DNA of 64,000 nucleotides from Conexibacter sp. DBS9H8 (lineage in GTDB: Bacteria; Actinomycetota; Thermoleophilia; Solirubrobacterales; Solirubrobacteraceae). A program made the translations under genes and the position numbers. This document shows positions 5,558 through 61,749 of this stretch, piece by piece; position 1 is the stretch's first letter; each line of letters starts with the position of its first letter. The stretch spans positions 62,001 to 126,000 of the forward strand of contig NZ_CP097128.1 of assembly GCF_023330685.1 (NCBI RefSeq), written 5' to 3'. Under the pieces are notes generated by a model. The model was given only the letters and a program-made list of their open reading frames with translations, had not been told where the DNA came from and did not search any database.

Positions 5558-5603
5558 GGGCGCGTGCACAGATTCGTCGATATGACGAACATTCGCACAC
5601 GCT
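5558..5603. repeat. 46-bp palindromic element, copy A
   Basis: Nested dyad of 35 bp at 5564-5598: GTGCA-N4-TTCGTC-N5-GACGAA-N4-CGCAC, the inner arms TTCGTC/GACGAA perfect and the outer arms with one mismatch. It lies 81 bp upstream of the icd start. A second copy in inverted orientation occurs at 61531-61576; I count 41 of 46 positions identical between them, with 21 consecutive identical bases in the core. Neither copy is in a gene. It could be an operator for a shared regulator or a small dispersed repeat. Confidence 0.75.
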
Positions 5604-5632
5604 CGTCCGTCCCGATCGTCCGACGACCAGCC

Positions 5633-5763
5633 GGGCGGACGGCCCCCGGTCAGAGCCGGGCGGACGGCCCCCGGTCAGAGCCGGGCGGACGGCCCCCGGT
5701 CAGAGCCGGGCGGACGGCCCCCGGTCAGAGCCGGGCGGACGGCCCCCGGTCAGAGCCGGGCGG
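5633..5763. repeat. 25-bp tandem repeat array (five copies plus a partial)
   Basis: Five identical copies of a 25-bp unit beginning GGGCGGACGGCCCCCGGTCA and ending GAGCC, at 5633, 5658, 5683, 5708 and 5733, followed by a partial unit. Each contains CCCGG-N6-CCGGG, so the array could form a row of small GC-rich hairpins. The last copies overlap the 3' end of the FAD gene and supply its stop codon (5750-5752). There are no spacers, so it is not a CRISPR. Perfect identity suggests recent slippage expansion. A role in termination or mRNA 3'-end protection is possible. Confidence 0.9.
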
Positions 5764-7441
5764 CGACGGCCCGCCCGGCGGCCCGCCCGGAGAACAGGCA
5801 ACCGCCGAGGAAGGTGCCCTCGAGGGCGTTGTAGCCGTGCATGCCACCCCCGCCAAACCCGGCGATCTCCCCGGCCGCGTACAGGCCGCCGATCGGATCG
5901 GCCACGGCGTCGAGGACCCGGGCCTCGAGGTCGGTGTGGAGGCCGCCGAGCGTCTTGCGGGTGAGGATGTTGAGCTTGACGGCGATCAGCGGGCCGGCGT
6001 CGGGGTCGAGCAGCTTGTGGGGGGCGGCGATCCGCTGGATCCGGTCAGGGAGGTAGGCACGCCCGGCCCGGATCGCCGCGATCTGGAGGTCCTTGCCGTA
6101 GCGGTTGTCCAGCTGGGCGTCTCGGGCTTCGATCTGGGCGCGAACCGCCTCGAGACTGAGGACGGGGGCGGTGCTCTCCACCTCGCGGGCGTCCTCGGCG
6201 ACGAGGGTGTTCATCCGTTCCACCAGCCGCGCGAGGTCCGCGTCGACGATGAAGTCACGCCCCCGGTCCATGAACGCCTGGATCGGCGCGGGAACGCCGG
6301 GCAGGAGTCGCTGGCGGACGGTGTCGAGCACCGACCTGCCGGTGATGTCGGGGTTCTGCTCCGAACCCGACAGCGCGAACTCCTTCTCGATGATCTTCCG
6401 GGTGAGGATGAACCACGTGTAGTCGTACCCGGTCTGGCCGATGTGGGCGAGGGTGGCGAGCGTGTCAAAGCCCGGGTAGAGCGGTGCGGGCAAACGCCGT
6501 CCCGTCGCGTCGAGCCAGAGGGAGGAGGGGGCGGGCAGGATCCGGATGCCGTGGTGGGCCCAGACGGGGTTCCAGTTGCGGATCCCCTCAACGTAGTGCC
6601 ACATCCGGTCACGGCCGATCCAGCCGGCACCGCGGCGTTCGGTCAGCTCGAGCAGCCGCCCGTCGACGTGGGCGGGCACCCCGGCGACCATCCGCCGCGG
6701 GGGCGGTCCGAGGCGGGCCGGCCAGTTGGCGCGGACGAGCTCGAAGTTGTGTCCGATCCCGCCGCCGGCGAGGATCACCGCCGGAGCGTGGGCGCGGAAC
6801 TCGCCGACGACGGTGCGGGAGCTTGCCTGCCCGCGCGCGACCGCGGAGGGAGCGAGCACGCTGCCGCTCACCCCGGTGACGGTTCCGGCCTCAACGGTGA
6901 GGTCATCGACGCGGTGGCGGAAGGCGAAGGTGAGCAACCCGGCCTCCGCGGCGGCGCGAGCCCGTGCCTCGAACGGGGCGACGACCCCGGGTCCGGTGCC
7001 CCAGGTGAGGTGAAAGCGCGGCACCGAGTTGCCGTGCGTGCCGGCGGCCCCGCCGCCGCGCTCGGCCCAGCCGGGGCTCGGCAGCACCCGGATCCCGCGG
7101 GCCGCGCACCAGGCGCGCTTTTCCTCGGCGGCGAACTCGACGTAGGCCCGAGCGACCCGGCGCGGCCAGGCGTCCTCGGGCCGGTCAAAGGCGGCGGAGG
7201 CGAGCCAGTCCGACCAGGCGAGCTCGAAGCTGTCCCGAATCCGGGCCCGGCGCTGCTCGGGCGAATCGACGAAGAAGAGGCCGCCGAGGGACCAGTAGGC
7301 CTGCCCGCCCAGGGACGCCTCCGGCTCCTGGTCGAGCAGGAGCACCCGCGCCCCCGCATCCGCCAGCTCGGCGCAGGCGACAAGCCCAGCCAGCCCGGCC
7401 CCGACGACGATGACATCGGCGCGATGCTCGAGAACGTTCAC
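5750..7441 (-). CDS. FAD-binding dehydrogenase (flavoprotein of the FAD_binding_2 family)
   Basis: 563 residues. The N-terminal Rossmann dinucleotide motif VIVVGAGLAGLVACAELADAGARVLLLDQE (about residues 10-40) binds FAD, followed by LGGQAYWSLGGLFFVD. The C-terminal FAD contact region is LNILTRKTLGGLHTDLEARVLDAVADPIGGLYAAGEIAGFGGGGMHGYNALEGTFLGGCLFSGRAAGRAVA, typical of the fumarate reductase/3-ketosteroid dehydrogenase fold and close to the uncharacterised 'FAD-binding dehydrogenase' group. Substrate unknown. It starts with GTG at 7439-7441, 10 bp after the molybdopterin oxidoreductase stop, so the two are probably co-transcribed. The last codon and stop fall in a 25-bp repeat array. Confidence 0.88.
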   Translation of the reverse strand: MNVLEHRADVIVVGAGLAGLVACAELADAGARVLLLDQEPEASLGGQAYWSLGGLFFVDSPEQRRARIRDSFELAWSDWLASAAFDRPEDAWPRRVARAYVEFAAEEKRAWCAARGIRVLPSPGWAERGGGAAGTHGNSVPRFHLTWGTGPGVVAPFEARARAAAEAGLLTFAFRHRVDDLTVEAGTVTGVSGSVLAPSAVARGQASSRTVVGEFRAHAPAVILAGGGIGHNFELVRANWPARLGPPPRRMVAGVPAHVDGRLLELTERRGAGWIGRDRMWHYVEGIRNWNPVWAHHGIRILPAPSSLWLDATGRRLPAPLYPGFDTLATLAHIGQTGYDYTWFILTRKIIEKEFALSGSEQNPDITGRSVLDTVRQRLLPGVPAPIQAFMDRGRDFIVDADLARLVERMNTLVAEDAREVESTAPVLSLEAVRAQIEARDAQLDNRYGKDLQIAAIRAGRAYLPDRIQRIAAPHKLLDPDAGPLIAVKLNILTRKTLGGLHTDLEARVLDAVADPIGGLYAAGEIAGFGGGGMHGYNALEGTFLGGCLFSGRAAGRAVAARL

Positions 7442-7451
7442 GGTCGCGAGA

Positions 7452-8144
7452 CTATGACGGGTCCGCCACGGGTGCGCCGCCGCGCAGCTCCCGGCGGCGC
7501 AGCTTGACGAGATACTCGGGCTCGCTGTAGCGCTCCTCCGCCCACGGATCGCCGCGGTGGTGGTAGCCGTTCTCCTCCCAGAACCCGAGCCGGTCCTCCG
7601 TGAGGACCTCCAGGCGCGACAGCCACTTGGCGGACTTCCACAGATACAGGTGCGGGATCAACAGCCGCACCGGGCCGCCGTGCTCGCGGGTGAGGGGCCC
7701 ACCCTGGGCGGCGTGGACGATCAGGCCGCGCCCGTCGCTCACGTCAGACAGCGGAACGTTGGTGCTGTAGCCGTCGTAGCCGTGGACGAGCAGGTGGGAG
7801 GCGTCCGCCGCGAGCCCGGCGAGCTCGAGCAGGGTGTGGACCTCCACGCCGGTGAAGGACATCCCGAACTGGGACCAGCGGGTCACACAGTGGATGTCGG
7901 TGTCCGTCCAGGTGGTCTGGGCGAGGCCGAGCAGCTCGGCATACCCGAGGGAGAGCGGCTCGGTGACCGCACCGTCGACGCGCAGGCGCCAGGCCTCAAG
8001 GCCGACGTCGGGCTGGCGGCCGAGGTCGAGCACCGGCCACTTGGTCGTCGGGGACTGGCCGGGCGGCAGCCGGAGCGGGTCGATCCCGAGCGACTCGGCA
8101 CGCCGGCGGCCGCGCTCCCCGAAGAACTTCGCGGTGATCGGCAT
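7452..8144 (-). CDS. Molybdopterin-dependent oxidoreductase, sulfite oxidase family
   Basis: 230 residues from ATG at 8142-8144 (MPITAKFFGERGRRRAESLGIDP). An in-frame upstream extension to 8225 is possible but reads as basic low-complexity and lacks family similarity. Visible motifs are LPPGQSPTTKWPVLDLG at the N-terminus, TDIHCVTRWSQFGMSFTGVEV, where the Cys is the expected molybdenum ligand, LLVHGYDGYSTNVPLSD and GGPVRLLIPHLYLWKSAKWLSRLEV. This is the oxidoreductase molybdopterin-binding (SuoX/YedY-like) fold. There is no signal peptide and no heme domain, so it is probably cytosolic and donates electrons to another carrier. It precedes the FAD dehydrogenase by 10 bp. Confidence 0.88.
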   Translation of the reverse strand: MPITAKFFGERGRRRAESLGIDPLRLPPGQSPTTKWPVLDLGRQPDVGLEAWRLRVDGAVTEPLSLGYAELLGLAQTTWTDTDIHCVTRWSQFGMSFTGVEVHTLLELAGLAADASHLLVHGYDGYSTNVPLSDVSDGRGLIVHAAQGGPLTREHGGPVRLLIPHLYLWKSAKWLSRLEVLTEDRLGFWEENGYHHRGDPWAEERYSEPEYLVKLRRRELRGGAPVADPS

Positions 8145-8285
8145 GCCGGGATTGTGGCCGATCTGGTCCCGGGTGCCCGCGTCGGCGAAGCGACACCGGT
8201 CCCGGATGCGGGATCTCCGCCGCACGGGTCACGCCAGCAGCCGACACGGGAAGACCGCGCGATCGACCCGGCGAGAGGCGCGCAC

Positions 8286-9410
8286 TCAGACGACCGCGTC
8301 GAGGAGGGCGCTGACATCCTCCTCCGAGGTCCAGGCGCCGCAGGAGGCGCGGAGGAGGCCGTGGCTGGGAATCGAACGAACGAGGATCCGCCGGTCCCGC
8401 AGGCGGGAGACCTCGGACTCGACGTCGGCGCGGGGACGCCAGGAGACGAGCGTCGAGAACCCGCGGGCAGCGAGCTCGACCCCCCGTTCCTGCAGGCCGT
8501 TGGCGAGCATCCCGGCCATGAACGCGGCGCGACCATGAACCCAGTCCCAGCCGGGTGCCGCGAGCACCTCAAGGGACGCGATCGCCCAGGCGCTGCGGAT
8601 CGCCGGCGGGAAGCTCGTATCGAGCCGGGCGGCGGTCGGCGCGAGCGCGGAGCCGAGCGGGTCGCCGTGATCGGCGACGGTGCCGTAGGACGGCCACGGC
8701 GGCTCGAGGCCCTCGAGCCGGTCGGGCCGCACATACAGCGCACCGCTGCCTTCGGGCCCGCACAACCACTTCTGCCCCGAACCGGCGTAGTAGTCGACCC
8801 CGAGCGTGCCGAGGTCGAGCGGGATCGCTCCCAGCGCCTGGGCGCCGTCGAGGAGGACGGGCACGCCGGTGGCGAGCAGCGCCGGGACGTCGACGACCTC
8901 CCCGCCGACCCAGGAGACGTGGGAGCAGGCGATCAGCCGGGTGCGGGGGCCGACCGCCTCACTGAGCCGGGCGAACGGGGCGACGGTGATCGTGACGCCG
9001 TCGCGCACGCGCAGGCGCCGCAGCGGGGCGAGCAGGCCCGGATGCTCCTGATCGGAGGTGACGATCTCATCCCCGGGCCCGAAGCGCAGCCCGCCGAGAA
9101 CGGTGTTGATGCCCGACGTCGTCGACTCCGTCAGTGCGACGTCATCGGCGCTGACCCCCATCGTGGCGGCATAGGCGGCCCGCGCCCGAGTGGCGAGGCC
9201 GAGCAGGGTGTCGAGGTAGGCGGCGCCGATCCGTCCCTGGTTGAGGTCGGCGTCGAGGCGGCCGCGGACGGCGTCGACGGCCGCTTGGGGGACCGGGCCC
9301 TCGGTGCCCGCGTTGAGGTACCGGTAGGCGCTGAGAACCGGGAACTGGGCCTGGAAGCCGTTCCACCCGGTCGCGGGTCCACCAGACCCGCGACCGGCCT
9401 CAGCGGTCAC
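8286..9410 (-). CDS. Aminotransferase class V (PLP-dependent)
   Basis: 374 residues with the class V/NifS-like fold: LNAGTEGPVPQAAVDAVRG near the N-terminus, DDVALTESTTSGINTVLGGL (phosphate-binding region), VLLDGAQALGAIPLDLGTLGVDYYAGSGQKWLCGPEGSGALYV around residues 190-235, with the PLP lysine in SGQKWLCG. It resembles the isopenicillin N epimerase-like / cysteine desulfurase-like group. The catalytic Cys loop of true NifS desulfurases was not recognised, so desulfurase activity should not be assumed. The start codon overlaps the end of the acyl-CoA synthetase gene by 11 bp, indicating co-transcription. Confidence 0.85.
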   Translation of the reverse strand: MTAEAGRGSGGPATGWNGFQAQFPVLSAYRYLNAGTEGPVPQAAVDAVRGRLDADLNQGRIGAAYLDTLLGLATRARAAYAATMGVSADDVALTESTTSGINTVLGGLRFGPGDEIVTSDQEHPGLLAPLRRLRVRDGVTITVAPFARLSEAVGPRTRLIACSHVSWVGGEVVDVPALLATGVPVLLDGAQALGAIPLDLGTLGVDYYAGSGQKWLCGPEGSGALYVRPDRLEGLEPPWPSYGTVADHGDPLGSALAPTAARLDTSFPPAIRSAWAIASLEVLAAPGWDWVHGRAAFMAGMLANGLQERGVELAARGFSTLVSWRPRADVESEVSRLRDRRILVRSIPSHGLLRASCGAWTSEEDVSALLDAVV

Positions 9411-11040
9411 GGAGCTCCCGCTTGAGCACCTTGCCGGTCGGGTTGCGCGGGAGCGCGTCGAGGAAGACGATCTCGCGCGGCACCTTGTAGTTGGCGAGGT
9501 TGTCCTTGACGTAGGCGCGGAGGGTGTCGGCGTCGACGGACTTTCCCGAACGGAGGGCGACGAAGGCCTTCAGGCGCTGGCCGAACTCGTCGTCCTCGAC
9601 GCCGATCGCGGCGGCCTCGGCGACGGCGGGGTGGCCGGCGAGGAGCTCCTCGACCTCGTGGGGGAAGACGTTCTCACCGCCGGAGACGATCATGTCGTCG
9701 TCGCGTCCGTCGATGAACAGACGGCCGCTTTCGTCGAAGTGGCCGACGTCCCCGGAGGACATCAGCCCGTCCCGGATCTCCTTGTGGCCGCCGCCGGTGT
9801 AGCCCTCGAACTGGATCGTGTTGGCGACGAAGATCCGCCCGGTCTTCCCCACCGGCTGCTCGGCGCCGTCCTCGGCGAGGATCTTGACCGTCGCGCCGTG
9901 CACGACCCGGCCGACGGTCCCGGGCGCCGCGGTGAGGTCCGCGGGAGTGGCGATCGTCGCGTAGGCGACCTCGGTCGAGCCATACAGGTTGTAGAGCACC
10001 GGCCCGAGGCGATCGAGCGTGCGCCGGGCGAGGTCGGCCGACAGCGCCGAGCCGGAGACGAAGACGATCCGCAGCGCCGACAGGTCGCGGGACTCGAATG
10101 CGGCATCATCGAGGGCCATCATCCGCTGGAGCATCACCGGCACCATCACGACGGTGTTGACCCGGTTCTCCGCCATGCTCTCCAGCGCCTGCTGGGGATC
10201 GAAGCGGCGATGGATGACCATCGTCGCATTCAGGGACACCGCGAGGATCATCTGCGAGAACCCGAGCGCGTGGAAGATCGGGGCGCAGATCTGGTGGATC
10301 TGGCCGGAGCGGTAGGGGACACGGGAGAGCGGGCCGCCGATCGGGGAGAGCGACAGCGGTACGTGGCGGCCCGCTCCCTTGGGGGTGCCGGTCGTCCCGG
10401 AGGTGAGGATGACCAGCCGCGGCGGCTGGCCGGGCCGCGGCGGGGGGGTCGGCTTGGATGAGGCGATCTGGGCCTCGAGGGTGTCATCGGCGTTGGCGCG
10501 GGTCTCGACCCAGGCGCGCACGGTTCCCAGGCGCGGGCGGTAATCGCCGATCGCGGCCGTGTACTCCTCGTCGTAGACGATCAGATCGACGCCCTCGCGG
10601 TCGGCGACCTCACGGATCTGGGGGCCCGAGAACCCCGTGTTCATCAGGATGATCTTTCCCCCGAGCTTGGCGGCGGCGAACATCGCCTCGATCAGGCCAC
10701 GGTGGTTGCGAGCCAGCAGCGCCACCCCGTCTCCGGCCCGGAAGCCGTCGTCACGCCAGGCCGAAGCGAGCGCGTTGACACGGTCGTCGAGCTCGCGCCA
10801 GGTGAGCTCCCCCTGCTCGTCGCTGATGGCGAGGCCGTCGGGGTGGCGCAGCGCGGCGGCCTCGGTGAGACTGCCGAGCACCCCGTAGCGCTCGACCGCA
10901 AGCCCGAGCCGGAGCACGCGCAGCGGCGGTTCGATCCCGAACACGCCGGCCCGGGCGCAGACGGCCGCGTAATAGGCCTCGTCGGCGGCGCGCTTAGCGA
11001 GCGTGGCGGCCCGGGAGACACCGATCGTGGCAAGCGACAT
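9400..11040 (-). CDS. Acyl-CoA synthetase (AMP-dependent ligase, FadD-like)
   Basis: 546 residues of the ANL adenylating superfamily. The P-loop motif LVILTSGTTGTPKGAGR is near residue 205, YNLYGSTEVAYATIATP is the A5 motif, DGLMSSGDVGHFDESGRLFIDGRDDDMIVSGGENVFPHEVEELL holds the hinge, and the C-terminal catalytic lysine lies in LPRNPTGKVLKREL. Together these activate a carboxylate as acyl-AMP and transfer it to CoA. The long N-terminus before the A-domain (AAVCARAGVFGIEPPLRVLRLGLAVERYG) recalls mycobacterial FadD2/FadD12-type enzymes. It heads a leftward group with the aminotransferase and is divergent from the ankyrin gene across about 50 bp. Confidence 0.9.
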   Translation of the reverse strand: MSLATIGVSRAATLAKRAADEAYYAAVCARAGVFGIEPPLRVLRLGLAVERYGVLGSLTEAAALRHPDGLAISDEQGELTWRELDDRVNALASAWRDDGFRAGDGVALLARNHRGLIEAMFAAAKLGGKIILMNTGFSGPQIREVADREGVDLIVYDEEYTAAIGDYRPRLGTVRAWVETRANADDTLEAQIASSKPTPPPRPGQPPRLVILTSGTTGTPKGAGRHVPLSLSPIGGPLSRVPYRSGQIHQICAPIFHALGFSQMILAVSLNATMVIHRRFDPQQALESMAENRVNTVVMVPVMLQRMMALDDAAFESRDLSALRIVFVSGSALSADLARRTLDRLGPVLYNLYGSTEVAYATIATPADLTAAPGTVGRVVHGATVKILAEDGAEQPVGKTGRIFVANTIQFEGYTGGGHKEIRDGLMSSGDVGHFDESGRLFIDGRDDDMIVSGGENVFPHEVEELLAGHPAVAEAAAIGVEDDEFGQRLKAFVALRSGKSVDADTLRAYVKDNLANYKVPREIVFLDALPRNPTGKVLKRELRDR

Positions 11041-11091
11041 GATCTCAGTGAAGGTACCGCCTTAGAGGCGGCTCGGTATCGTCGGTGTTGG

Positions 11092-12282
11092 GTGGCTGTG
11101 AGCGACACATTGGCGGACCAGGCCGAGGCCGTGGTGTGGAGCGCCTGCTCGGCGCTCGTCTCCACCGCGCGTGACCTACTCGCCCAGGATCCGCGCCTCG
11201 GCCGCTTCGACCTCGCCGCCGCGGCGGCCTGCGGGGAGGCTGACGTCGTCCGGCGGCTCGTGAGCGCCGACCCGGACCGGGCGAACATGTTCTTCACCCC
11301 GCTGGGCCGAACCCCGTTGCACTATGCGACCTTCTCACGGCTCGGCCGGGTCGACCCCGCGCGTGCCCTCGGGTTGCGGGAGGTCGTCAGCGTCCTGCTC
11401 GAACTCGGCGCTGACCCCAACCTCTCCTTTCACCGTGACGGGTGGGTGCAGGCCCCGATCCACGGCGCCGCCGGGATCGCCGGGGATCCAGAGATGACCC
11501 GGATGCTGCTCGACGCGGGCGCCGACCCCAACGACGCCGGCCCCGAGCAGGCGACAGCCGGAGAGGCGCTCTACCACGCAGCCGAGGTGGCCAACCCCGA
11601 GTGCGCGCGCCTGCTGATCGTCGCCGGCACGGAGCCCGAGACGGTCAGTCGCGCCCTCGGACGCGCCCTCGAGTTCGATCACCCGGCGATGGTCGCCGCA
11701 TTCTGTGAGAGCGGGGCACGGGCGGACGCCAGGCACCTGCAACACGCGGTATGGCACCGTCGTGGCCCGCACACGGTCCGCCACCTGCTCGGGGCCGGGG
11801 CGCCACCGGAGGTGCTCGACAGATTCGGGCTCTCCGCTGTCCAGGTCGCCCGACTGTGGGGGGATGAGGCCGTCGCCCAATTGCTCATCGGCGCGGGAGC
11901 GGCCGACCGGCCCGCCCCCGTGCTTGAGGCCCGGGCGCACATGGCGGTGCTCGATGAGCTGCTTCGTGTCGCCGTCGCCCGGGGGGCCCGGGCCGACGTC
12001 GCGGTCCTGCTGGACCGGGGGGCACGGCTCAACGGTGACCGGACGGCCGCCGGTCCGCTCGGCCAAGCCTGCTGGCGGGGACGCGACGAGATCGTCGAGG
12101 AGCTCCTGAGCCGTGGGGCGATCGTCACCTTCGACGACGGCAGTGACGCGCTCGGGGCCACCCGCCGGGGGGCGGGCCACTGCAACGATCCGGAGGGCGG
12201 GCCGACGCTGGGCACTGCGGAGGAGATCGATCAGGCCCCCTACCGCCGGATCGAGGCGCTGCTCGCCGGGACAGCGCACTGA
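11092..12282 (+). CDS. Ankyrin repeat protein
   Basis: 396 residues from GTG at 11092 (a second GTG is at 11098). The open frame runs back to 10702 but that part is antisense to the acyl-CoA synthetase. Ankyrin-type units are visible: FDLAAAAACGEADVVRRLVSADPDRAN, GRTPLHYATFSRL, EVVSVLLELGADPNLSF, MTRMLLDAGADPNDA, CARLLIVAGTEPETV and DEIVEELLSRGAIVTF, the helix-turn-helix LLxxGADPN pattern spread over about 350 residues. It is a probable cytoplasmic protein-binding scaffold with no catalytic domain. The stop TGA shares its last base with the ATG of the patatin gene, so the two are translationally coupled and may act together. Confidence 0.88.
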   Translation: MAVSDTLADQAEAVVWSACSALVSTARDLLAQDPRLGRFDLAAAAACGEADVVRRLVSADPDRANMFFTPLGRTPLHYATFSRLGRVDPARALGLREVVSVLLELGADPNLSFHRDGWVQAPIHGAAGIAGDPEMTRMLLDAGADPNDAGPEQATAGEALYHAAEVANPECARLLIVAGTEPETVSRALGRALEFDHPAMVAAFCESGARADARHLQHAVWHRRGPHTVRHLLGAGAPPEVLDRFGLSAVQVARLWGDEAVAQLLIGAGAADRPAPVLEARAHMAVLDELLRVAVARGARADVAVLLDRGARLNGDRTAAGPLGQACWRGRDEIVEELLSRGAIVTFDDGSDALGATRRGAGHCNDPEGGPTLGTAEEIDQAPYRRIEALLAGTAH

Positions 12283-13601: not shown

Positions 13602-13608
13602 GGGCGTC

Positions 13609-13625
13609 GCCGGGCCGGCCCCGGC
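13609..13625. terminator. Short GC hairpin between convergent genes
   Basis: GCCGGG-N5-CCCGGC lies just after the patatin stop and 9 bp before the end of the convergent secreted-protein gene. No U-tract. It is placed where a bidirectional terminator is expected. Confidence 0.4.
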
Positions 13626-13633
13626 ACGGGACC

Positions 13634-25675: not shown

Positions 25676-25721
25676 CCCCGCGGGGAAGAGGTCCCCCGCG
25701 GGGAAGAGGTCCCCCGCGGGG
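25676..25721. repeat. 18-bp direct repeats around CCCCGCGGGG
   Basis: The self-complementary decamer CCCCGCGGGG occurs three times at 18-bp spacing (25676, 25694, 25712), separated by AAGAGGTC. It lies in the 226-bp non-coding gap between the hypothetical gene and the DUF6458 gene, downstream of the latter. The hairpin potential could serve as a terminator for the leftward DUF6458 gene. Confidence 0.75.
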
Positions 25722-25763
25722 AAGCCGGGCCCGCAGGCCGGCTGTGTCAGCCCGGCTGCCGCC

Positions 25764-50737: not shown

Positions 50738-50741
50738 GCTG

Positions 50742-52554: not shown

Positions 52555-52584
52555 TCCTCGGTTCGCACCCTGAGCCGCAGTGGC

Positions 52585-52778: not shown

Positions 52779-55700
52779 GTGTCGGTGCTCGAGCTCCCCT
52801 CTCGTGTCGACCTCGATGAGGTCGCCCGCTCCGTCGGCAAGACCTCCTACTCCCGCGGGTCCGCCTATGCCCGCGGCAAGCGGGTGCTGTCGGTCGACTG
52901 GAATGAGGAGGAGCTCGCGCTCACCGGCCGCGTGCGCGGCAGCGGTCTGTACACGACGCGGGTGCGCTTCGCCGAGGTCGGCACGGAGTTGCAGTTCGTC
53001 TACGGCGAGTGCACCTGCCCGATCGGCTATGACTGCAAGCACGTCGCCGCGGTCGCGGTTGCGGCGACGGCGCGACAGCCGCCGCCTCCTGCGCCGACGG
53101 AGAGGGGACCGACGGGCGCGACGGGGTCGGCCGGCGCGGGCGAGCCGCCTGTGGCCGCTGCGTCGACGGGTGGGGTCACGCACACCGGTCCGTCCTGGCG
53201 GGACCGGCTCGTGCCGTTGGTGAGCCGCCCGACCGGGTCCACCGCGGGCGCCCCCCTCGCCCTCGAGCTCGTCGTCACCGGCGGCCCCGACGCGCACCGC
53301 CGGCGCCTGCAGGCGAAGCTGATGCGCCCGGGCGCCCGCGGCGGCTGGGTCAACGGATCGCTCACCTGGAATCGCCTTGACCCCTGGGATCAGCGCGCCT
53401 CGGCCCTGCGTGAGGATCACCTCGGCATCGTTCGCGAGCTCGCCTCCCTCGCCCAGGCCCACCGGGGGAGCCGCTACCTGTACGGCTACGGGAGCCAGGA
53501 CAAGCTGCTCGATCTCACCGACGTCGACGGCGGGCCGTTCTGGGGCCTGCTCGAGGAGGCGCGTGTCCGCGGCGTCGAGCTGCTCGACGCCGCCGGCGGC
53601 CCGCCCGTGCGGGAGATCGGGTCCGCCGAGCTTCGCCTCGACGTCACCGTCGCCGTGGACGGGGCCGCGGAGGCGGTGCCGATCATGTCTGAGGAGCCGC
53701 CCCGCCCGTCGGTGCTCACGCGGACGCCGGTCCTGTTCCTGGGTGAGGGTGGCCACGGTCTCCTCCTGCGCGAGTTCGGCGAGCCCGACGGTGGTGCACG
53801 GTCCGATCACGGAGCGCTGCGGCTGCTGCGCCTGACGCGGCCCGCCCCGGCGTCCCTGCAGACGATGGTGCTCGCCGGGGAACGGGTGCAGATCCCCGCC
53901 GCGGATCTGGCGGCCTTCACCGCGGAGGTCGCCCCCGCCCTCGGCCGGGTCGCCCCGATCGTCTCCCACGACGGGAGCTTCTGCGCCCCGGAGGTGAGCG
54001 GCCCCGAGCTGGTTCTCCGCGTCGAACACGGGCCCGAGCACCGCACCTGGCTCGACTGGGCGGTGCGTTACCGCGTCGGTGAGACGCTGATCGATGCCGA
54101 CCTCGGCGACCTCGCCGCGGTCGGCGGGGACGATCCGGCCGCGGCGATCCGCGATCGCGGCGCCGAACGGGCCCTGCTGGAGGCGATCGCCCGCGACCCG
54201 GAGGCCGGGACGGTCTGGGGTTCCTCGGACGGGACCGGGACCCCGACGGGCGCTCCGATCATCCTCGAGGGCCTCGCGACCGCGCGGTTCGTCGCCCAGG
54301 CGCTGCCCGCCCTGCGCGAGTCGGTGACCGTCGAGGAGACCGGCACCCCCGCCGACTACCGCGACGTCGCCGACAGCCTGGTCGTCGAGCTCTCGACCGA
54401 GCCGGCGGCCGGTCAGACCGACTGGTTCGATCTCGGCGTGACGATCCGGGTCGCCGGGGTGGAGCTGGCCTTTGCGCCCGTGTTCGCCGCCCTCGCGCGG
54501 GGTGAGACCGATCTGCTGTTGGATGACGGCGCCCACTTCTCCCTGCTCGTCCCCGAGCTCCGCGCTCTCGCGCAGCTGATCGCCGAGGCGCGGACGCTCG
54601 GAGACGGGTCAGCTCCCGGGTCGCTGCGGATCAGCCGCTACCAGGCGACGCTGTGGGAGGAGCTCGTCGCCCTCGGCGTCGTCGGCGCCCAAGCGGAGGC
54701 CTGGCAGGCCCAGCTCGAGGCGCTCCGCGGGCTCGAGGAGGTCATCTCACCACCGCTCCCGGGCGGCTTCACGGCGACGCTGCGCCCCTACCAGCGTGAG
54801 GGTTTTGACTGGCTCGCCACCCTCTGGCAGCTCGGGCTCGGCGGGATCCTCGCCGACGACATGGGCCTGGGCAAGACCGTCCAGGCCCTCGCCCTCATCG
54901 CCCATGCGGTGCGCGGCGGCGCCGAGGACCCGTTCCTCGTCGTCGCGCCGACGAGCGTTCTGCCCAACTGGATGACCGAGGCGCAGCGGTTCGTCCCCGA
55001 CCTCAACGTCCGGGCGATCGCCGACACCCACCGCAAGCTCGGGGCCGACATCCTCGACACGACCGCAGGGGCCCACATCGTCGTCACCACCTACACGCTG
55101 CTGCGCCTCGACGCCGACCGCTACGGCGCGCGCCGCTGGGCCGGACTGCTCCTCGACGAGGCCCAACACGTCAAGAACCACAACGCCAAGACCCACCAGG
55201 CGGCCCGGCGGATCGACGCGCCGTTCAAGCTGGCGATCACCGGTACGCCGATGGAGAACAACCTCACCGAGCTGTGGGCGCTGCTGTCGATCACCGCCCC
55301 CGGCCTGTTCCCCGACCCCGAGCGCTTCAGCGAGTTCTGGGCCCGGCCGATCGAGCGCCACGGCGACGGTGAGCGGCTCGCCACGCTGCGGCGACGGATC
55401 CGGCCGCTGCTCAAACGCCGCACCAAGGAGCTCGTCGCCGCCGAGCTCCCGGCCAAGCAGGAGCAGCTCCTCACCGTTGCCCTGCACCCGCGTCACCGCA
55501 CGCTCTATGACCGCCACCTCCAGCGCGAACGGACGCGGATCCTCGGGCTGCTCGAGGACTTCAACGCGAACCGGCTCAGCGTCCTCACCGCGATCACCAA
55601 GCTGCGCCAGCTCAGCCTCCACGCCGGGCTGATCGATGACGCGCACGCGAACGTGCCCTCGGCCAAGCTCGATGAACTCGTCACCCAGTTGCATGAGGTG

Positions 55701-56162
55701 ATCGACGGCGGCCACCGAGCGCTCGTCTTCAGCCAGTTCACCGGCTTTCTCGCCCGCGTCCGGGCCCGCCTCGACGCCGAGGGGATCGGCTACTGCTATC
55801 TGGACGGCCGCACCCGCAACCGGGAGCGGGTCCTCACCCGGTTCAAGACCGGAGCCGATCCGGTGTTCCTGATCAGCCTCAAGGCGGGCGGGGCCGGGCT
55901 CAACCTGACCGAGGCCGACTACGTCTTCGTGCTCGATCCGTGGTGGAATCCGGCGGTGGAGGCCCAGGCGATCGACCGCAGCCATCGGATCGGCCAGACC
56001 CGGCCGGTCGTCGTCTACCGCCTCGTGTCCGAGGGCACGGTCGAGGAGAAGGTCGTCGCCCTCGCCCGCCGCAAGGCCCAGCTCTTCTCCGGGGTGATGG
56101 ACGACGGGGATCTGTTCGCCGGTCAGATCACCGCGGCCGACATCTCCGGGCTGCTGGGCTGA
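52779..56162 (+). CDS. SNF2-family helicase with N-terminal SWIM zinc finger
   Basis: 1127 residues from GTG at 52779. The SWIM finger CTCPIGYDCKHVA gives Cys78, Cys80, Cys86 and His88. A long middle part (about 130-640) is a beta-rich region typical of bacterial SNF2 proteins. The motor follows: GGILADDMGLGKTVQALALIAHAV (Walker A, near 690), LLLDEAQHVKNHNAKTHQAARRI (DEAQ box, near 792), KLAITGTPMENNLTELWALLSI, and in the second lobe LVFSQFTGFLARV and VLDPWWNPAVEAQAIDRSHRIGQTRPVVVYRLV. It is a double-stranded DNA translocase that could act in repair, transcription or defence; it stands alone with no partner genes, so housekeeping seems more likely. Confidence 0.93.
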   Translation: MSVLELPSRVDLDEVARSVGKTSYSRGSAYARGKRVLSVDWNEEELALTGRVRGSGLYTTRVRFAEVGTELQFVYGECTCPIGYDCKHVAAVAVAATARQPPPPAPTERGPTGATGSAGAGEPPVAAASTGGVTHTGPSWRDRLVPLVSRPTGSTAGAPLALELVVTGGPDAHRRRLQAKLMRPGARGGWVNGSLTWNRLDPWDQRASALREDHLGIVRELASLAQAHRGSRYLYGYGSQDKLLDLTDVDGGPFWGLLEEARVRGVELLDAAGGPPVREIGSAELRLDVTVAVDGAAEAVPIMSEEPPRPSVLTRTPVLFLGEGGHGLLLREFGEPDGGARSDHGALRLLRLTRPAPASLQTMVLAGERVQIPAADLAAFTAEVAPALGRVAPIVSHDGSFCAPEVSGPELVLRVEHGPEHRTWLDWAVRYRVGETLIDADLGDLAAVGGDDPAAAIRDRGAERALLEAIARDPEAGTVWGSSDGTGTPTGAPIILEGLATARFVAQALPALRESVTVEETGTPADYRDVADSLVVELSTEPAAGQTDWFDLGVTIRVAGVELAFAPVFAALARGETDLLLDDGAHFSLLVPELRALAQLIAEARTLGDGSAPGSLRISRYQATLWEELVALGVVGAQAEAWQAQLEALRGLEEVISPPLPGGFTATLRPYQREGFDWLATLWQLGLGGILADDMGLGKTVQALALIAHAVRGGAEDPFLVVAPTSVLPNWMTEAQRFVPDLNVRAIADTHRKLGADILDTTAGAHIVVTTYTLLRLDADRYGARRWAGLLLDEAQHVKNHNAKTHQAARRIDAPFKLAITGTPMENNLTELWALLSITAPGLFPDPERFSEFWARPIERHGDGERLATLRRRIRPLLKRRTKELVAAELPAKQEQLLTVALHPRHRTLYDRHLQRERTRILGLLEDFNANRLSVLTAITKLRQLSLHAGLIDDAHANVPSAKLDELVTQLHEVIDGGHRALVFSQFTGFLARVRARLDAEGIGYCYLDGRTRNRERVLTRFKTGADPVFLISLKAGGAGLNLTEADYVFVLDPWWNPAVEAQAIDRSHRIGQTRPVVVYRLVSEGTVEEKVVALARRKAQLFSGVMDDGDLFAGQITAADISGLLG

Positions 56163-56183
56163 GCCGGCGGGACGGACGCCCGG

Positions 56184-57098
56184 TCACAACTGCGCGAACA
56201 GGGCCGCCGCGGCGATCTGGTCGGGGAACGTCTCCGTGTCGGTGAGTCCCCAGGCGAGGCTGTGCACGAGCGCCCAGCCGCGCACGCGGGCCCGGTCGAG
56301 CCCGAACCGGTCGACGTAGAAGTCGAGGCGCCGGCTGAGACGCCGGCGTGGGTCCGGTGCGCTCAGCAGGGCAGGGAGGCGGTCGCGCAGCGGTGAGGCG
56401 AGGTCGAAGGCCCGCTCGCCGATCAGCGGCTTGGGGTCGATCGCCACCCAGCCCGCCGCCCCCGCCAGCAGGTTGCCGCCGTGGGCGTCCTGGTGACAGA
56501 GAACCGGCGCGGGTGGGCGCGCGCTGAGCTCGTCGACGAGGGTGAGCGCCTCTTCGAGCAGCCGGCGGGGAAACGGCTCTCTGTGGCGTCGCCAACGGCC
56601 GGGGAGGCCGGCGGCCCAATCGCGGGCATCGTCGGTGAGGGTGCGGAACGGTCCGTCGGCGGGAGCGGGCCGCCAGAGGGTCGCGAGGACGGTGGCGGTG
56701 ATCGCGTCGGCGGCCGCCTCGTCCTCGACGGACCAGAGCGGGTCGCCTGGGAGGCAGCGGTCGATCAGCAGCGCCCGGCGGTCGCGGTCCTGGTCGATCA
56801 ACCCGACCGCTCCGCGCCGGTCCCAGAATGCGAGCGCATCCCCCTCCGGTTCGCTCTCGGGCTCGGGGAAGTTGACCTTCAGCACCGCCGGGCTCCCGTC
56901 CGCACGGGTGACCGGGGCGACCCAGGCGACGTTGCCGGCGCGGAACGGTTCCCCGAGGGTCAGCGCCCAGCGGTCCGCGCAGGCGGAGACGGTCGCCGGG
57001 AGCGCCTCGAGCCAGGGTTCGGCGACCGGGGTGTGGCGCCAGAAGGCCCGGAGGTGGTCGGGGACCGGGACGCGGTGCGGCTCGCACATCACCGCCAC
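56184..57098 (-). CDS. Aminoglycoside phosphotransferase, APH(6)/streptomycin kinase family
   Basis: 304 residues; start GTG at 57096-57098 or ATG three codons later (MCEPHRVPV). N-lobe: ADRWALTLGEPFRAGNVAWVAPVTRADGSPAVLKVNFPEPESEPEGDALAFW. Catalytic loop: APVLCHQDAHGGNLLAGAAGWVAIDPKPLIGERAFDLASPL, with HQDxHxxN and the metal-binding IDPKP motif. This is the aminoglycoside/hydroxyurea kinase family (APH(6), e.g. streptomycin 6-kinase). Chromosomal actinobacterial members often have unknown natural substrates, so resistance is not established. It starts 4 bp after the stop of the membrane protein gene on the same strand. Confidence 0.88.
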   Translation of the reverse strand: MAVMCEPHRVPVPDHLRAFWRHTPVAEPWLEALPATVSACADRWALTLGEPFRAGNVAWVAPVTRADGSPAVLKVNFPEPESEPEGDALAFWDRRGAVGLIDQDRDRRALLIDRCLPGDPLWSVEDEAAADAITATVLATLWRPAPADGPFRTLTDDARDWAAGLPGRWRRHREPFPRRLLEEALTLVDELSARPPAPVLCHQDAHGGNLLAGAAGWVAIDPKPLIGERAFDLASPLRDRLPALLSAPDPRRRLSRRLDFYVDRFGLDRARVRGWALVHSLAWGLTDTETFPDQIAAAALFAQL

Positions 57099-57102
57099 CG
57101 TG

Positions 57103-57732
57103 TCAGGTCCACAGCCGCCCGACGACGAGTCCGACTCCGAGCAGCACCGTCGCCATCCACAGCGCCGACAGGGCCCCCTCGAGCGGGCCGAGCAGGCCGG
57201 CCCGGTCGAGGGTCCAGACGCGCCCGTCGGTGAGGGTGAGCTCTCCGTGCAGGGTGGCGGTGCGGCGCCTGAGGTCGCGCGCAGGCGTGGAGAGCCGCCG
57301 CTGGGCGAGGCTGAGGAGGGTGCAGAAGCCGGCGATCACCACCGGCTCGGCGCGCAGGTCGGTCGCCTCGACGAACCAGCCGGTGAGGGCGGGAAACGCC
57401 CCCCAGGCGAGAGCAAACCAGACGTCACTGTGAAAACGGCCGGCGAACAGCTCGAGGTTGTAGGCGAGGGCGAGGAACGCCCCGGCGAGGATGAACGGGA
57501 TCAGCCAGACTGAGACGGTGAGGGCACCGAGGACCCCGAGCAGGATCGCGCCGCCGAGGCCAAACCCGGCGAGTCCGATCAGGGCCCGCCGAGACAGCCG
57601 GGTCCCCAGTGGCCGTCCGGCCAGCTCGTCCAGCGCGTGGCAGCCGATCCCGAGGGCGAGCAGGAACGCCGCGAGCGCGGCGCCGAGCCGCCAGAGCACG
57701 AACGTCGGCGCGAGCGCCGCGCCGATCGCCAC
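57103..57732 (-). CDS. Integral membrane protein with unresolved start
   Basis: The only standard start in this frame after the ubiE-type stop is GTG at 57730-57732, giving 209 residues. Coding similarity to a natural N-terminus (FYALAPGGWRDLVTLLHPPYTAWHLSY) clearly extends further, to about 57815, where no ATG, GTG or TTG is found. Helices: VAIGAALAPTFVLWRLGAALAAFLLALGIGCHALDEL, ALIGLAGFGLGGAILLGVLGAL, VWLIPFILAGAFLALAYNLEL, FALAWGAFPALTGWFVEA and ALWMATVLLGVGLVVGRL. The HALDEL and HSDVWFALAWGAFP motifs could bind metal. It follows the methyltransferase on the same strand, so translation may depend on frameshifting or coupling from it. Function unknown. Confidence 0.65.
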   Translation of the reverse strand: MAIGAALAPTFVLWRLGAALAAFLLALGIGCHALDELAGRPLGTRLSRRALIGLAGFGLGGAILLGVLGALTVSVWLIPFILAGAFLALAYNLELFAGRFHSDVWFALAWGAFPALTGWFVEATDLRAEPVVIAGFCTLLSLAQRRLSTPARDLRRRTATLHGELTLTDGRVWTLDRAGLLGPLEGALSALWMATVLLGVGLVVGRLWT

Positions 57733-57871
57733 GTAACTGAGATGCCAGGCCGTATACGGCGGGTGCAGGAGGGTGACGAGGTCCCGCCAGCCGCCGGGCG
57801 CGAGCGCATAGAAGGAGGTCGCGGGCGTTGCGGGCGTTGCGGTCGGTGCGGGCGGTGTCGGCCCCGCCGGG

Positions 57872-58594
57872 TCAGGCCGACGTGGCGGCGTCTTTGACCC
57901 CCAGGATGACGAGCCCGGCTCCGAAGCTGAGGTCGCGACGGACGAGCTGCCCGATCCCGGCCGCCCGCCACAGCGCGAGCAGGTCGGGCCGTCCGGCGTG
58001 GAAGGCCTCAATGTTCGGGCCGAGGAAGCGACCGACCTCATACCAGTCCTCAGAGACGACCCGGCCGATGAGCGGTAGGCCGACCCGGGTGTGGACCCGC
58101 CACAGCGCCCGCAGGGCCGGGTCGCCGGGCACGCCGAACTCGACCATCCCGATCCGTCCGCCCGGCTTGACGACGCGCGCGAGCTCCGCGAGCGTCGCGG
58201 CAGGGTCGTCGACGTAGCGGAGCAGGTAGGTGAAGGAGAGCGCGTCAAAGCTCGCATCGGGGAACGGCAACGCCTCGGCCTCACCGCGCCGGAAGGCGAG
58301 CCGGCCCGCGAGCCCGGGCGTTGCCGCGAGGCGCGCCTGGGCGCCTGACAGCATCGCCTCACTCTGGTCGAGTCCGATCACGTCCGCTCCCCGTTCGGCG
58401 TGGGCGAAGGCGACCATCCCGGTCCCGGTGGCGACGTCCAGGATCGACATCCCTGGGGCGGCGGCGATGTAGTCGACGAGGGCCCGGCGCCACCGGGGGT
58501 CCTGGCCGAAGCTCATCACCGCACCGACGCGGTCATAGTGGGCGGGCAGCCCGGAGAACAGTTCGACGGCGTGGCGCTTGCGGGTCGAGGCCAT
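57872..58594 (-). CDS. Class I SAM-dependent methyltransferase, UbiE/MenG-like
   Basis: 240 residues. RKRHAVELFSGLPAHYDRVGAVMSFGQDPRWRRALVDYI is the UbiE-type N-terminus. SAM motif I is ILDVATGTGMVAFAHAERGADVIGLDQSEAML, post-I and II are LAFRRGEAEALPFPDASFDALSFTYLLRYVDDPAATLAELARVVKPGGRIGMVEFG. The C-terminal helix differs from E. coli UbiE. It may be the demethylmenaquinone methyltransferase of the respiratory quinone pathway, which in actinobacteria makes menaquinone, but the general family also methylates other substrates. No other men genes are near. Confidence 0.85.
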   Translation of the reverse strand: MASTRKRHAVELFSGLPAHYDRVGAVMSFGQDPRWRRALVDYIAAAPGMSILDVATGTGMVAFAHAERGADVIGLDQSEAMLSGAQARLAATPGLAGRLAFRRGEAEALPFPDASFDALSFTYLLRYVDDPAATLAELARVVKPGGRIGMVEFGVPGDPALRALWRVHTRVGLPLIGRVVSEDWYEVGRFLGPNIEAFHAGRPDLLALWRAAGIGQLVRRDLSFGAGLVILGVKDAATSA

Positions 58595-58611
58595 CAGCGA
58601 GCGAGCATACG

Positions 58612-59256
58612 GTGAGCGGAGGCGCGGTGAGCCGCTGGGTGACGGTGGCGGGCGCGCCGCGCAACACTGCGGGGGTGGAACCGAGGGTGGGAGCAGCGGT
58701 GGCGGAGGGGCTCGACGGCTGGCTGCCCACTCCAGTGATCCGCGTACAGCACCGGCGCGAGGCCAACGTTGACGCCGTCTCGCTGTGGCGAGCGGCCGGG
58801 GCCATCACCCTCGCCGACACCCGCGCCCTCGGCGCGCTTGTGCGCCTGCGGATCCCCGGGCTCACACCGGCCACTCGCTTCGACGAGATGTTCCGGTCCG
58901 CCCCGTTCAACCCTCTGTGCGTAGCCGATGGCGTGCTCGTGTCCGGGCTCGTCGGCCGGATCTGGACGCTGCGGCGCGACTACCCATCCCTCCCTGACGC
59001 GGCCGCGTTCCGGGAGTGGCGCGAGCGTGGGACCGTCCGAGTGCTGTTTGCCAACTGGGTCGAGCCCCTGCCTCAGGGCCGGTCGGCGTTGGTCAGCGAA
59101 ACGCGGGTGGATGCCGTCGACCGGATCGCCCGGCTCGGCCTGACCACGCTGGCGCCGCTGATCACCGGATCGCACAGCCTGATCGGCAGCGACGGCCTCG
59201 CCGCCGCGGTCCGTCGGGCCGAGGCGGGGCGGCGGGCCGAGACCGCGCCACGGTGA
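58612..59256 (+). CDS. Hypothetical protein, no family recognised
   Basis: 214 residues from GTG at 58612, 17 bp from the divergent methyltransferase start. GLDGWLPTPVIRVQHRREANVDAVSLWRAAGAITLADTRALGALVRLRIPGLTPATRFDEMFRSAPFNPLCVADGVLVSGLVGRIWTLRRDYPSLPDAAAFREWRERGTVRVLFANWVEPLPQGRSALVSETRVDAVDRIARL. The alternation and the VLFANWVEPLPQGRSALVSETRV strand pair suggest a SRPBCC (helix-grip) type ligand-binding fold, but this is a fold guess. It ends in GTGA, the start of the longest version of the DUF2071 gene, so the two genes are probably co-transcribed. Confidence 0.65.
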   Translation: MSGGAVSRWVTVAGAPRNTAGVEPRVGAAVAEGLDGWLPTPVIRVQHRREANVDAVSLWRAAGAITLADTRALGALVRLRIPGLTPATRFDEMFRSAPFNPLCVADGVLVSGLVGRIWTLRRDYPSLPDAAAFREWRERGTVRVLFANWVEPLPQGRSALVSETRVDAVDRIARLGLTTLAPLITGSHSLIGSDGLAAAVRRAEAGRRAETAPR

Positions 59257-59324
59257 GGGCGGTGGGCGCTGCCGTGGCCGCCACATCTTCATCGATGCTT
59301 CTCGTCGCCCCCTACGCTCGGGGT

Positions 59325-60143
59325 ATGGCCGTTGACGCGGCGACCGCCCTTGAGTTCGCCGGGACCTACGATCCAACCCCCGGTCCCGTGCCCGCTCGGG
59401 TGGTGATGTCCCAGCGCTGGACCCAGCTGACCTATCTGCACTGGCCCTACGATCCGGCGGCGGTCGCCCCGCTGCTGCCGGCCGGAACGGTTCCCGACAC
59501 CTTCGGGGGGGTCACCTGGATCGGGCTGATCGCGTTCTGGATGCGGGACGTCCGGGTCCTCGGATCCGCCCCGGTGCCCTACTTGTCGAGCTTTCTCGAG
59601 ACGAACGTCCGCGCCTATGCGGTCGACGGTGAGGGGCGCCGCAGTGTCGTCTTCTTCTCCCTCGACGCGAGCCGTCTGCTTCCGGTCGCCGTTGCCCGAG
59701 CGAGCTACCGGATCCCCTACATCTGGTCCTCGATGCGCCTGCTCGCCAGTGGCCGCGAACTCACCTATCTCACCCGCCGGCGTGTCGGCCCCGCCGCCTC
59801 CCGGATCACCGTGCGGATCGGAGCCCCGGTGACGGCGACCCCGCTCGACCATTTCCTCACCGCCCGCTGGGGTCTGCACAGCCGCTGGTACGGGATCACC
59901 ACCTACGTTCCGATCATCCACGAGCCGTGGCCGCTGCTCTCTGCCGAACTCCTCGAACTCGACGATTCACTCGTGGTCGCCGCCGGCCTGCCCGCCCCCT
60001 CGGGCCCGCCACGGGTCCTCTGCTCCCCCGGCGTCCGCGTGCGGCTGGGCACCCCCCAGCGGCTGGGCACCCCCCAACGGCTGGGCACCCCCCAGCGGCT
60101 GGGCACCCCCCAGCGGCTGGGGACGACCGCCGACGGCCGGTGA
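59325..60143 (+). CDS. DUF2071 (YqjF-like) protein with RLGTPQ repeat tail
   Basis: 272 residues from ATG at 59325; ATG 59295 or GTG 59253 (overlapping the previous stop) are also possible. SQRWTQLTYLHWPYDPAAVAPLLPAGTVPDTFGGVTWIGLIAFWMRDVRVLGSAPVPYLSSFLETNVRAYAVDGEGRRSVVFFSLDASRLLPVAVARASYRIPYIWSSM is the DUF2071 core, a beta-rich fold related to acetoacetate decarboxylase-like proteins. The C-terminus carries four exact RLGTPQ hexapeptides encoded by an 18-bp tandem repeat. The function of DUF2071 proteins is unknown. Followed after 61 bp by the broken glycosyltransferase. Confidence 0.85.
   Translation: MAVDAATALEFAGTYDPTPGPVPARVVMSQRWTQLTYLHWPYDPAAVAPLLPAGTVPDTFGGVTWIGLIAFWMRDVRVLGSAPVPYLSSFLETNVRAYAVDGEGRRSVVFFSLDASRLLPVAVARASYRIPYIWSSMRLLASGRELTYLTRRRVGPAASRITVRIGAPVTATPLDHFLTARWGLHSRWYGITTYVPIIHEPWPLLSAELLELDDSLVVAAGLPAPSGPPRVLCSPGVRVRLGTPQRLGTPQRLGTPQRLGTPQRLGTTADGR
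60042..60119 (+). repeat. 18-bp minisatellite encoding RLGTPQ
   Basis: Four tandem 18-bp units (60042, 60060, 60078, 60096; CGGCTGGGCACCCCCCAG with one base change in one copy) plus a partial fifth. In frame, so it adds RLGTPQ units to the protein end. Copy number may vary between strains. Confidence 0.9.
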
Positions 60144-60204
60144 ACGACCGCCCAACGCGGGACCGACTGGCGGACACGCTATACGGGCGCAAGCGGAAAC
60201 CAGG

Positions 60205-61392
60205 ATGAGGGTCCTGCTCGGCTGTTCGCTCGGTGGTGCGGGCCACCTGTTGCCGCTCACCGCCGCCGCGGCGGCCCTTGAGCGCCTCGGCCACACCGCG
60301 ATCATGGTTGTTCCACCCACCCTCCGCGACCGCGCGGCGGCGACCGGTCTACGAGTGACCATCGGCGCGGACCCCGCGCCCGGCGTCGTCGATGCGGTCT
60401 GGGAGCGCGTCCGGGGCGGACCCGCGGAAAGCGTCTCGGGGCTCATCGACCGGTAGCTGTTCGCCGGGCACGGTGCGGCGGCGATGCTCGCCCCCGTCCG
60501 CGCCGCCCTGTTGGCCGAGCGGCCCGACCTGATCCTGCGCGAACCCAGCGAGTACGCAACGGCCGTCGTCGCCCACCAAGCGGGCCTTCCCCACGCCCAG
60601 GTCGGGATCTCGCTCTCCGCCGTCGAGGGTTCTGTGCTCGGTGACGTCGCGGACGTTCTCGACGGCTACGGCGCCGGAACCGTCGCGGCGATCCGCCGCG
60701 CGCCCTACCTGACCGCGTTCCCGTCCTCCCTTGATCCCTCGCCGTGGCGGGACACGCGCCGCTACCGCCTGCCCCGGCTCGCGGTGCCGCCGCTGCCGGA
60801 CTGGTGGGACGGCGATGAGCGACCGCTCATCCTCCTCAGCTTCGGGACCGTGTTCGGCCGCCTCCCGGAGGCGGTCGCGTCCTACCGCACCGCGATCGCC
60901 GCCCTCGCGGGGCTTCCCGTCCGTGTCCTGGTAACCGTCGGCCGGGACGGGCTGTCGCTCGGTCCCCAGCCGGCGAACGTCCGCGTCGAACCGTGGGTCG
61001 CCCAGGACCGGGTGCTCGGGGTGGCCCGGCTCGTCGTCTGCCATGGTGGTTCGGGGACGACCTACGGGGCCCTCGCCGCCGGCGTGCCGGTCGTCGTCTG
61101 CCCCTTCTTCGCCGATCAGGGCGCCAACGCAGAGCGCGTCGCGCGGTCCGGTGCCGGCCGGGTATATGTCCCACGGTCCGGGGAGGGACAGGGTATTGGT
61201 GGGCTCACCGGTGCCGACATCGCCCCGCTGGCGGCCGTGGTGGCCGCCGCCCTGGCGGACGAGCACCACCGCGCTGCCGCCCTGCGCATCGCCTCCGAGG
61301 TCACGGGCGCCCCGTCCCTCGATGACGTTCTCGGTCAGCTCCTGGAGGAGGTACCGGGGATGAGCGGCACCGAGGGTCCGCGGCCGACCTGA
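60205..61392 (+). pseudogene. MGT-type glycosyltransferase interrupted by an in-frame TAG
   Basis: One frame encodes the whole protein, but codon 84 is TAG (60454-60456): ...SVSGLIDR-stop-LFAGHGAAAMLAPVRAALL. Before it comes MRVLLGCSLGGAGHLLPLTAAAAALERLGHTAIMVVPP, the N-terminal Rossmann half of a GT-B UDP-glycosyltransferase. After it, LILREPSEYATAVVAHQAGLPHAQVGISLSAVEG, LILLSFGTVFG, VEPWVAQDRVLGVARLVVCHGGSGTTYGALAAGVPVVVCPFFADQGANAERVARSGAG holds the donor-binding PSPG-like motif with HGGSGT. A Gln or Glu codon to TAG change is enough to explain it. Otherwise intact (about 395 codons), so the lesion is recent, a sequencing error, or read through. The second half could restart at ATG 60484. 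Confidence 0.85.
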
Positions 61393-61749
61393 GCGCGGAC
61401 GAAGAGCGGGCGGCTCGGGCCGGACGCCTGGGGCGGAGCGCGCCCGTCTCGCCTCTCGTCCTTGGTCCCCGAGTGCCGGCGTTGCTGCGCAGAGCCCTTC
61501 AGTGCCCGCGTCACCGGCCGTTACGCCCTCAGCGAGTGCGATTTTTCGTCATATCGACGAATCTGCGCACTCGCCCGCCCGATCCCCGGACGCTCGGCGC
61601 GCCACGGGTTATGATCGTCGTTCGCGCGCAGGACGCGACCGGTCCGCGGAAAGGGCAAAGCCCACCTGCACACGACGGTCATCAGTCTGGTCGGCTCTCC
61701 TTTCCGGCCTGCGATTGCGGACTCCGGGCCCTGATGAAAGGAGGCACCT
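61393..61749. other. 357-bp intergenic region before the ankyrin gene
   Basis: No gene is supported here. It holds copy B of the 46-bp palindrome (61531-61576) and ends with an AAAGGAGG Shine-Dalgarno at 61738-61745 for the GTG at 61750. The remainder shows no further repeat or recognised RNA. Confidence 0.6.
61531..61576. repeat. 46-bp palindromic element, copy B
   Basis: The 35-bp dyad at 61536-61570 is perfect in both arms: GTGCG-N4-TTCGTC-N5-GACGAA-N4-CGCAC. Its reverse complement matches copy A at 5558-5603, including 5-6 flanking bases on each side. It lies 174 bp upstream of the ankyrin protein start and 138 bp after the glycosyltransferase stop. Confidence 0.75.

Follow-up and report, generated by a model that had tools for sequence, protein, structure and literature searches.

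Why does a 64,000-nucleotide stretch of the Conexibacter sp. DBS9H8 chromosome (the window; positions 62001-126000 of the single 3,636,119-bp contig) carry two matching palindromes, 56 kb apart and in inverted orientation? A preliminary description of this DNA had noticed the pair and offered two explanations, an operator linking the isocitrate dehydrogenase (IDH) gene icd with an ankyrin-repeat gene, or a dispersed genomic palindrome. Both palindromes are present where it placed them, and its count of 41 agreeing bases in 46 is borne out by BLAST of the two intergenic regions (46 bp, 89.13%, inverted orientation); the 21-base identical core, CAGATTCGTCGATATGACGAA, can be read in both oriented copies. 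The arm pattern has exactly two matches in the window at up to three mismatches (dinucleotide-preserving shuffles, 0/100). We conclude that this 47-bp unit, here termed F1, is very probably a dispersed, non-coding, lineage-specific palindromic repeat, resembling repetitive extragenic palindromic sequences (REPs) or miniature inverted-repeat transposable elements (MITEs), that has entered gene boundaries of the chromosome on at least 16 occasions. It is thus the second of the two explanations that fits, at about 16 copies in place of the hundreds of random sites by which a dispersed repeat was to have been recognised.

The exact core TTCGTC-N5-GACGAA occurs at 14 sites in the 3.64-Mb genome, and the same pattern read backwards at none. 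Related arms, ~15 bases on each side, flank all 14 cores, and a covariance model built from these copies recovers all of them together with two diverged full-length copies. The resulting total of at least 16 derives from scoring 150 of 1912 first-look candidates, with one match at E 0.62 left out of the count. Conservation falls at both edges of a unit of ~45-47 bp, giving it sharp ends, and the oriented consensus is roughly GAGCGAGTGCACAGA-TTCGTCGATACGACGAA-AAATCGCACTCGCTC. Within it the outer ten and the inner six positions pair, and the middle five are mostly unpaired because one arm is of the ACAGA type and the other of the AAATC (GATTT) type. The palindrome is incomplete, the 8-base middle arm segments matching at five or fewer of eight positions in 12 of the 16 copies. 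In four copies the arms are nearly equal (at least 7/8 alike), compared with a mean of 0.68 under random arm pairing (P 0.0004), and two of these four (L007 and L054) bear a rare arm type on both sides. When folded as single-stranded DNA, 8/16 copies clearly beat their shuffles (no more than 2/200 as good).

The family is confined to this lineage. Searched with the covariance model (stricter filters, 42 candidates scored per genome), none of the remaining 145 Solirubrobacteraceae genomes had a match at E<=0.01, and the arm pattern at up to two mismatches matches only one of 232 genomes of the order, that of DBS9H8 itself. At up to three mismatches it matches 4/28 genus and 18/146 family genomes, DBS9H8 included; the matches in the 17 other family genomes are isolated sites, the reversed control matches seven genomes, and of nine such sites that were fetched seven lie inside called open reading frames (ORFs) and two outside. 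These three-mismatch sites are treated as chance. There were no matches to the exact A-arm pattern in genome_contigs or to the arm pattern in IMG/VR, two collections from which the DBS9H8 genome may be left out. The closest named relatives at icd are a Solirubrobacterales metagenome-assembled genome (75% identity) and Patulibacter americanus (69%).

Comparison with congeners at two loci gives direction to this pattern. The L012 copy starts where a carboxyltransferase gene ends, at its stop codon, and the next gene, BKACE, follows after 153 bp. Among the orthologs in 14 congeners (73-81% identical), BKACE overlaps by one base or starts on the stop codon in ten, and in the remaining four a gap persists that is smaller than the 153 bp found here; from the stop codon to the conserved CAISG codon the distance is 183 bp here, compared with 17-118 bp in the congeners. 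At the second locus, for which the comparison is with the one congener G022, the FAD-oxidoreductase gene and icd are separated by 267 bp, a space occupied by the element together with a 25-bp x 5.7 tandem array, as against 20 bp in G022. The narrower or overlapping gaps in congeners at both loci indicate that the F1 element was gained at each. For F1, then, copy number, sharp edges, lineage restriction and, at two loci, an orthologous gap that lacks the element are established.

The array beside icd is not an isolated case. Tandem Repeats Finder (TRF) arrays with scores of at least 75 lie within 100 bp of 7/16 F1 copies (L002, L005, L006, L007, L011, L012 and L014), compared with 4.5% of random intergenic positions (binomial P 3e-6; the background being 18,790 positions drawn from 499 intergenic regions within 1.261 Mb of DBS9H8 sequence), and the excess persists at 30, 50 and 150 bp. 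By direct reading, the unit of the icd-side array resembles the 3' end of the FAD-oxidoreductase gene, including its stop codon, so that this array looks locally made. Arrays with an 18-bp unit also occur at window positions 60041-60121 and 25676-25724, away from any F1 copy.

Nor is F1 the only palindrome family of this size. Comparison of intergenic regions among the stretches sampled from the DBS9H8 genome yielded a second, F2, of the CAACGA-GGGGGAC type and with a length of about 49-51 bp; its five copies in 1.261 Mb lie in four convergent gaps and one divergent gap, with arrays beside three. The congener G022 has its own 49-bp quasi-palindrome, unrelated in sequence and with GAGTTTTGTGCATTTCG-type arms, present in eight copies in 800 kb, three of them with arrays against a background of 2.6%. 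A further congener, G010, has a family of ~48 bp (GGGTGGC-GCC...GGCGGCCACCC) with at least four copies in 280 kb; arrays accompany 4/4 of these, which were found by an intergenic BLAST that may favour array-bearing sites. Two of the three congeners sampled thus have their own, unrelated quasi-palindromes of ~48-49 bp. Neither F1 nor F2 turned up in the G022 sample, and the G022 family did not appear in that from DBS9H8. Array units containing 10-17 bases of the palindrome tip, beyond what shuffled flanks give, occur at L186 (F2) and at L270 and L273 (both G010); 17 bases of the element's arm recur in a 34-bp array at L270. The excess of tandem arrays near F1 is likewise established, as is the existence of families of similar size, both elsewhere in this genome and in two congeners. 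Separately, two intergenic sequences (L206:2966-3045 and L220:2619-2698) share AGCGACCCAAATCGTGCA arms over ~80 bp and are 75% alike; they are perhaps a further repeat family.

Where do the copies lie with respect to genes? With gaps classified by a purpose-made codon-usage gene caller, 2/16 F1 copies are in divergent gaps (L001 and L004), 5/16 in convergent (3'-3') gaps and 9/16 in codirectional gaps. Some calls are uncertain: short ORFs at L006 and L010, if real, would make both codirectional and reduce the convergent copies from five to three, an extended ORF at L008 would take in the element, and at L053 there is a 12-base overlap between the element and a predicted gene start. Well-supported genes are nowhere interrupted in their bodies by a copy, in sampled DNA that is ~89% coding, and 14/16 copies are flanked on one side or both by the 3' end of a gene. 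This last property is what would be expected of a bidirectional transcription terminator, or mRNA 3'-end hairpin, copied to many genes, and F1 and F2 taken together do favour 3'-3' regions (9/21, compared with 17% of intergenic length, P 0.005; F1 alone, 5/16, P 0.12). We nevertheless regard a terminator as unlikely. A GC-rich hairpin followed by a T run was found at neither window copy, the two that were scanned, half of the F1 copies fold poorly, and the occurrence in congeners of families of the same size and unrelated sequence favours turnover over a housekeeping signal.

An operator, in which the nested dyad would bind a tetrameric or paired-dimer regulator of icd, the ankyrin gene and the other neighbours, has in its favour the invariant inner hexamers, fixed spacing and conserved outer GCGAG-type ends of 14 copies, which were, however, chosen for their exact core, together with the two copies in divergent regions and several NADP(H)-linked neighbours (n=3: icd, malic enzyme and PntB). 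Upstream positions had been proposed at both window copies, and these stand, since copy 1 starts 75 bp upstream of icd and copy 2 lies 173 bp upstream of the ankyrin gene; each is, however, also downstream of another gene (the FAD oxidoreductase at 145 bp and the glycosyltransferase-like gene at 137 bp). Across the family the neighbours with Pfam matches are heterogeneous: 5'-3' exonuclease, YchF, malic enzyme, integrase, glycosyltransferase, PntB, BKACE, acyl-CoA carboxyltransferase, flavin reductase, AMP-binding enzyme, BacA, SufBD core, DUF1697, a two-component pair, IDH and ankyrin. Comparison of the flanks of different F1 copies gave short weak matches only. The element is 3' of both malic enzyme and PntB, which are among the convergent cases (five, or three if the short ORFs near L006 and L010 are real), and one copy sits inside a gene pair that is tight in congeners. 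An operator would be expected to be conserved at orthologous promoters, and absence there had been named in advance as evidence against one; F1 is absent from the 232 order genomes by pattern, apart from its own, and from 145 family genomes by model, and the 20-bp gap before icd in G022, where the orthologous promoter was compared, has no element. The diverse neighbours, the orientation of the copies, their lack in relatives and the short G022 gap before icd all argue against the proposed link between icd and the ankyrin gene, which we reject, and we consider a regulon operator quite improbable.

A chromosome-organising site of the parS or matS kind, which the palindromic form, the tens of copies or fewer and the occurrence in one species would suit, is scarcely credible, since F1 is not conserved in relatives and its 16 copies are not clustered (Rayleigh P 0.65), an apparent focus at the contig start being discounted by that test and by the location of dnaA at 558.6 kb, from which the copies are 69 to 1794 kb distant.

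The features of the window and the copies of the related families are collected in the table. Within the window Rfam gave no match at gathering score, and no tRNA was found.

Table. Palindromic repeats and their neighbours. Positions without a prefix are in the window; L numbers denote loci.
Feature	Position	Strand	Evidence
F1 copy 1 (locus L002), 47-bp quasi-palindromic repeat	5558..5604	+	pattern and covariance-model match, model E 2.6e-12
Inner dyad of F1 copy 1, TTCGTC-GATAT-GACGAA	5573..5589	.	read from sequence
F1 copy 2 (locus L003), 47-bp repeat, A-type arm to right	61530..61576	-	pattern and covariance-model match, E 6.1e-13
Inner dyad of F1 copy 2, TTCGTC-ATATC-GACGAA	61545..61561	.	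read from sequence
Tandem array, 25-bp unit x 5.7, 25 bp from copy 1	5629..5772	.	tandem-repeat search and direct reading
icd, monomeric isocitrate dehydrogenase, 75 bp from copy 1	3272..5482	-	PF03971, 1199 bits
FAD-binding oxidoreductase gene, end 145 bp from copy 1	5750..7441	-	PF00890
Glycosyltransferase-like gene, end 137 bp before copy 2	60484..61392	+	PF06722, PF00201
Ankyrin-repeat protein gene, start 173 bp after copy 2	61750..63759	+	PF12796 and other ankyrin models
Diverged F1 copy	1349177-1349223 (genome)		covariance model, E 1.3e-4
Diverged F1 copy	2401021-2401067 (genome)		covariance model, E 3.2e-4
F2 copies	L163:11750-11800; L168:12766-12816; L186:9160-9208; L189:18030-18078; L199:14484-14530		
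G022 family copy (seven more in G022 stretches)	L259:7886-7934		
G010 family copies (also L264, L273, L276)	L270:3775-3822		

How might such a repeat multiply? F1 copies could spread as a hairpin, either extruded or formed in single-stranded DNA, by means of a trans-acting activity. Template switching between the arms, a process known at quasi-palindromes (PMC8794818, PMC7202029), would sometimes render both arms alike. The hairpin may also disturb replication, so that slippage there gives tandem duplications of adjacent DNA, at times including the element's tip. Effects on neighbouring genes, such as operon spacing or mRNA ends, would then be side effects, and the data need no regulatory function.

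Several observations weigh against a repeat spread in this way. The other 8/16 F1 copies fold weakly, 3 to 41 of 200 shuffles doing equally well, and weak folding of about half the copies counts against any hairpin mechanism. Total arm similarity over the copies reaches no better than P 0.083, and for 14 copies the per-column covariation count is no higher than in shuffled controls. Tip sharing exceeds that of shuffled flanks only at L186, L270 and L273 (p 0, 0 and 0.01); it is no more than suggestive at L005 and L014 (p about 0.06), and most other copies show none. Arrays are common in G010 anyway, at 22% of random positions, no such family was seen in the 116 kb sampled from the congener G024, and the comparison for gain covered two loci only. 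A target-site duplication was not found (best z 2.75 among 104 combinations), although older copies may have lost it. Mobilisation by a REP-associated tyrosine transposase (RAYT) was rejected, the Y1 transposase family PF01797 having no match in the genome at E<=0.001, with 5/14 named genomes positive in a control search. A parent transposon or solo arms were rejected as well, as no arms occur outside the repeats beyond chance: at up to three mismatches one arm matches the repeats and three other sites, compared with seven reversed-control matches, and the other matches the repeats only. The main gaps in the mechanism are that half the copies fold weakly and that no mobilising enzyme was found.

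Short palindromes multiply in bacterial genomes even where no transposase can be recognised, by a route still to be explained; three congeneric genomes with several low-copy families of nearly equal length offer an entry. Since gain is visible at two loci and arrays are in excess, both the spread and the palindrome-array link can be tested by strain comparison. More tentatively, and with the odds against it, these families may belong to a recurrent class of ~47-50-bp quasi-palindromes, each species of the genus having its own unrelated families. Such elements would need no RAYT-type transposase to spread, hairpin-primed replication and template switching being examples of how they might do so, and would seed minisatellite arrays from their tips and adjoining DNA, palindrome and array together lengthening intergenic regions and splitting tight gene pairs. 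We found no paper describing the F1 repeat or its motif strings, and none with such a repeat as its topic among the literature on Solirubrobacter palindromes, in searches that left subscription papers largely outside.

How, finally, does F1 compare with known systems? PMC3733652 describes REPs of the GTAG and CGTC superfamilies as short, palindromic, intergenic sequences found mainly in unidirectional or convergent regions, often near 3' ends, in species-specific families of 20-100 or fewer units, and defines them by an unpaired terminal GTAG or CGTC tag. F1 is similarly palindromic, multicopy (at least 16) and extragenic at gene boundaries, with a similar size class and region preference. It differs in form, F1 being one 47-bp quasi-palindrome whereas REP units measure 20-40 bp and carry an unpaired end tag. 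In F1, GTAG is at 0/16 edges, CGTC or GACG is at the edges of 5/16 copies but in no conserved place, and the conserved CGTC of F1 is paired inside the stem. CGTC REPs are reported in PMC3733652 to lack a dedicated transposase, and the PF01797/RAYT criterion applies to GTAG REPs only. Like REPINs (paired REPs mobilised by RAYT; PMC3116915, PMC3733652), F1 has two inverted, often unlike arms in one unit; unlike them, each arm, of about 20 nt, has by eye no hairpin of its own, and no Y1/RAYT gene was found. With MITEs it shares a non-coding, dispersed, inverted-repeat character and insertion at the two loci tested, and differs in having neither a target-site duplication nor a longer relative carrying the same ends. 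Because end tag, target duplication and transposon-shared ends are all lacking, we do not file F1 as a member of either group, yet it works like a REP or a MITE.

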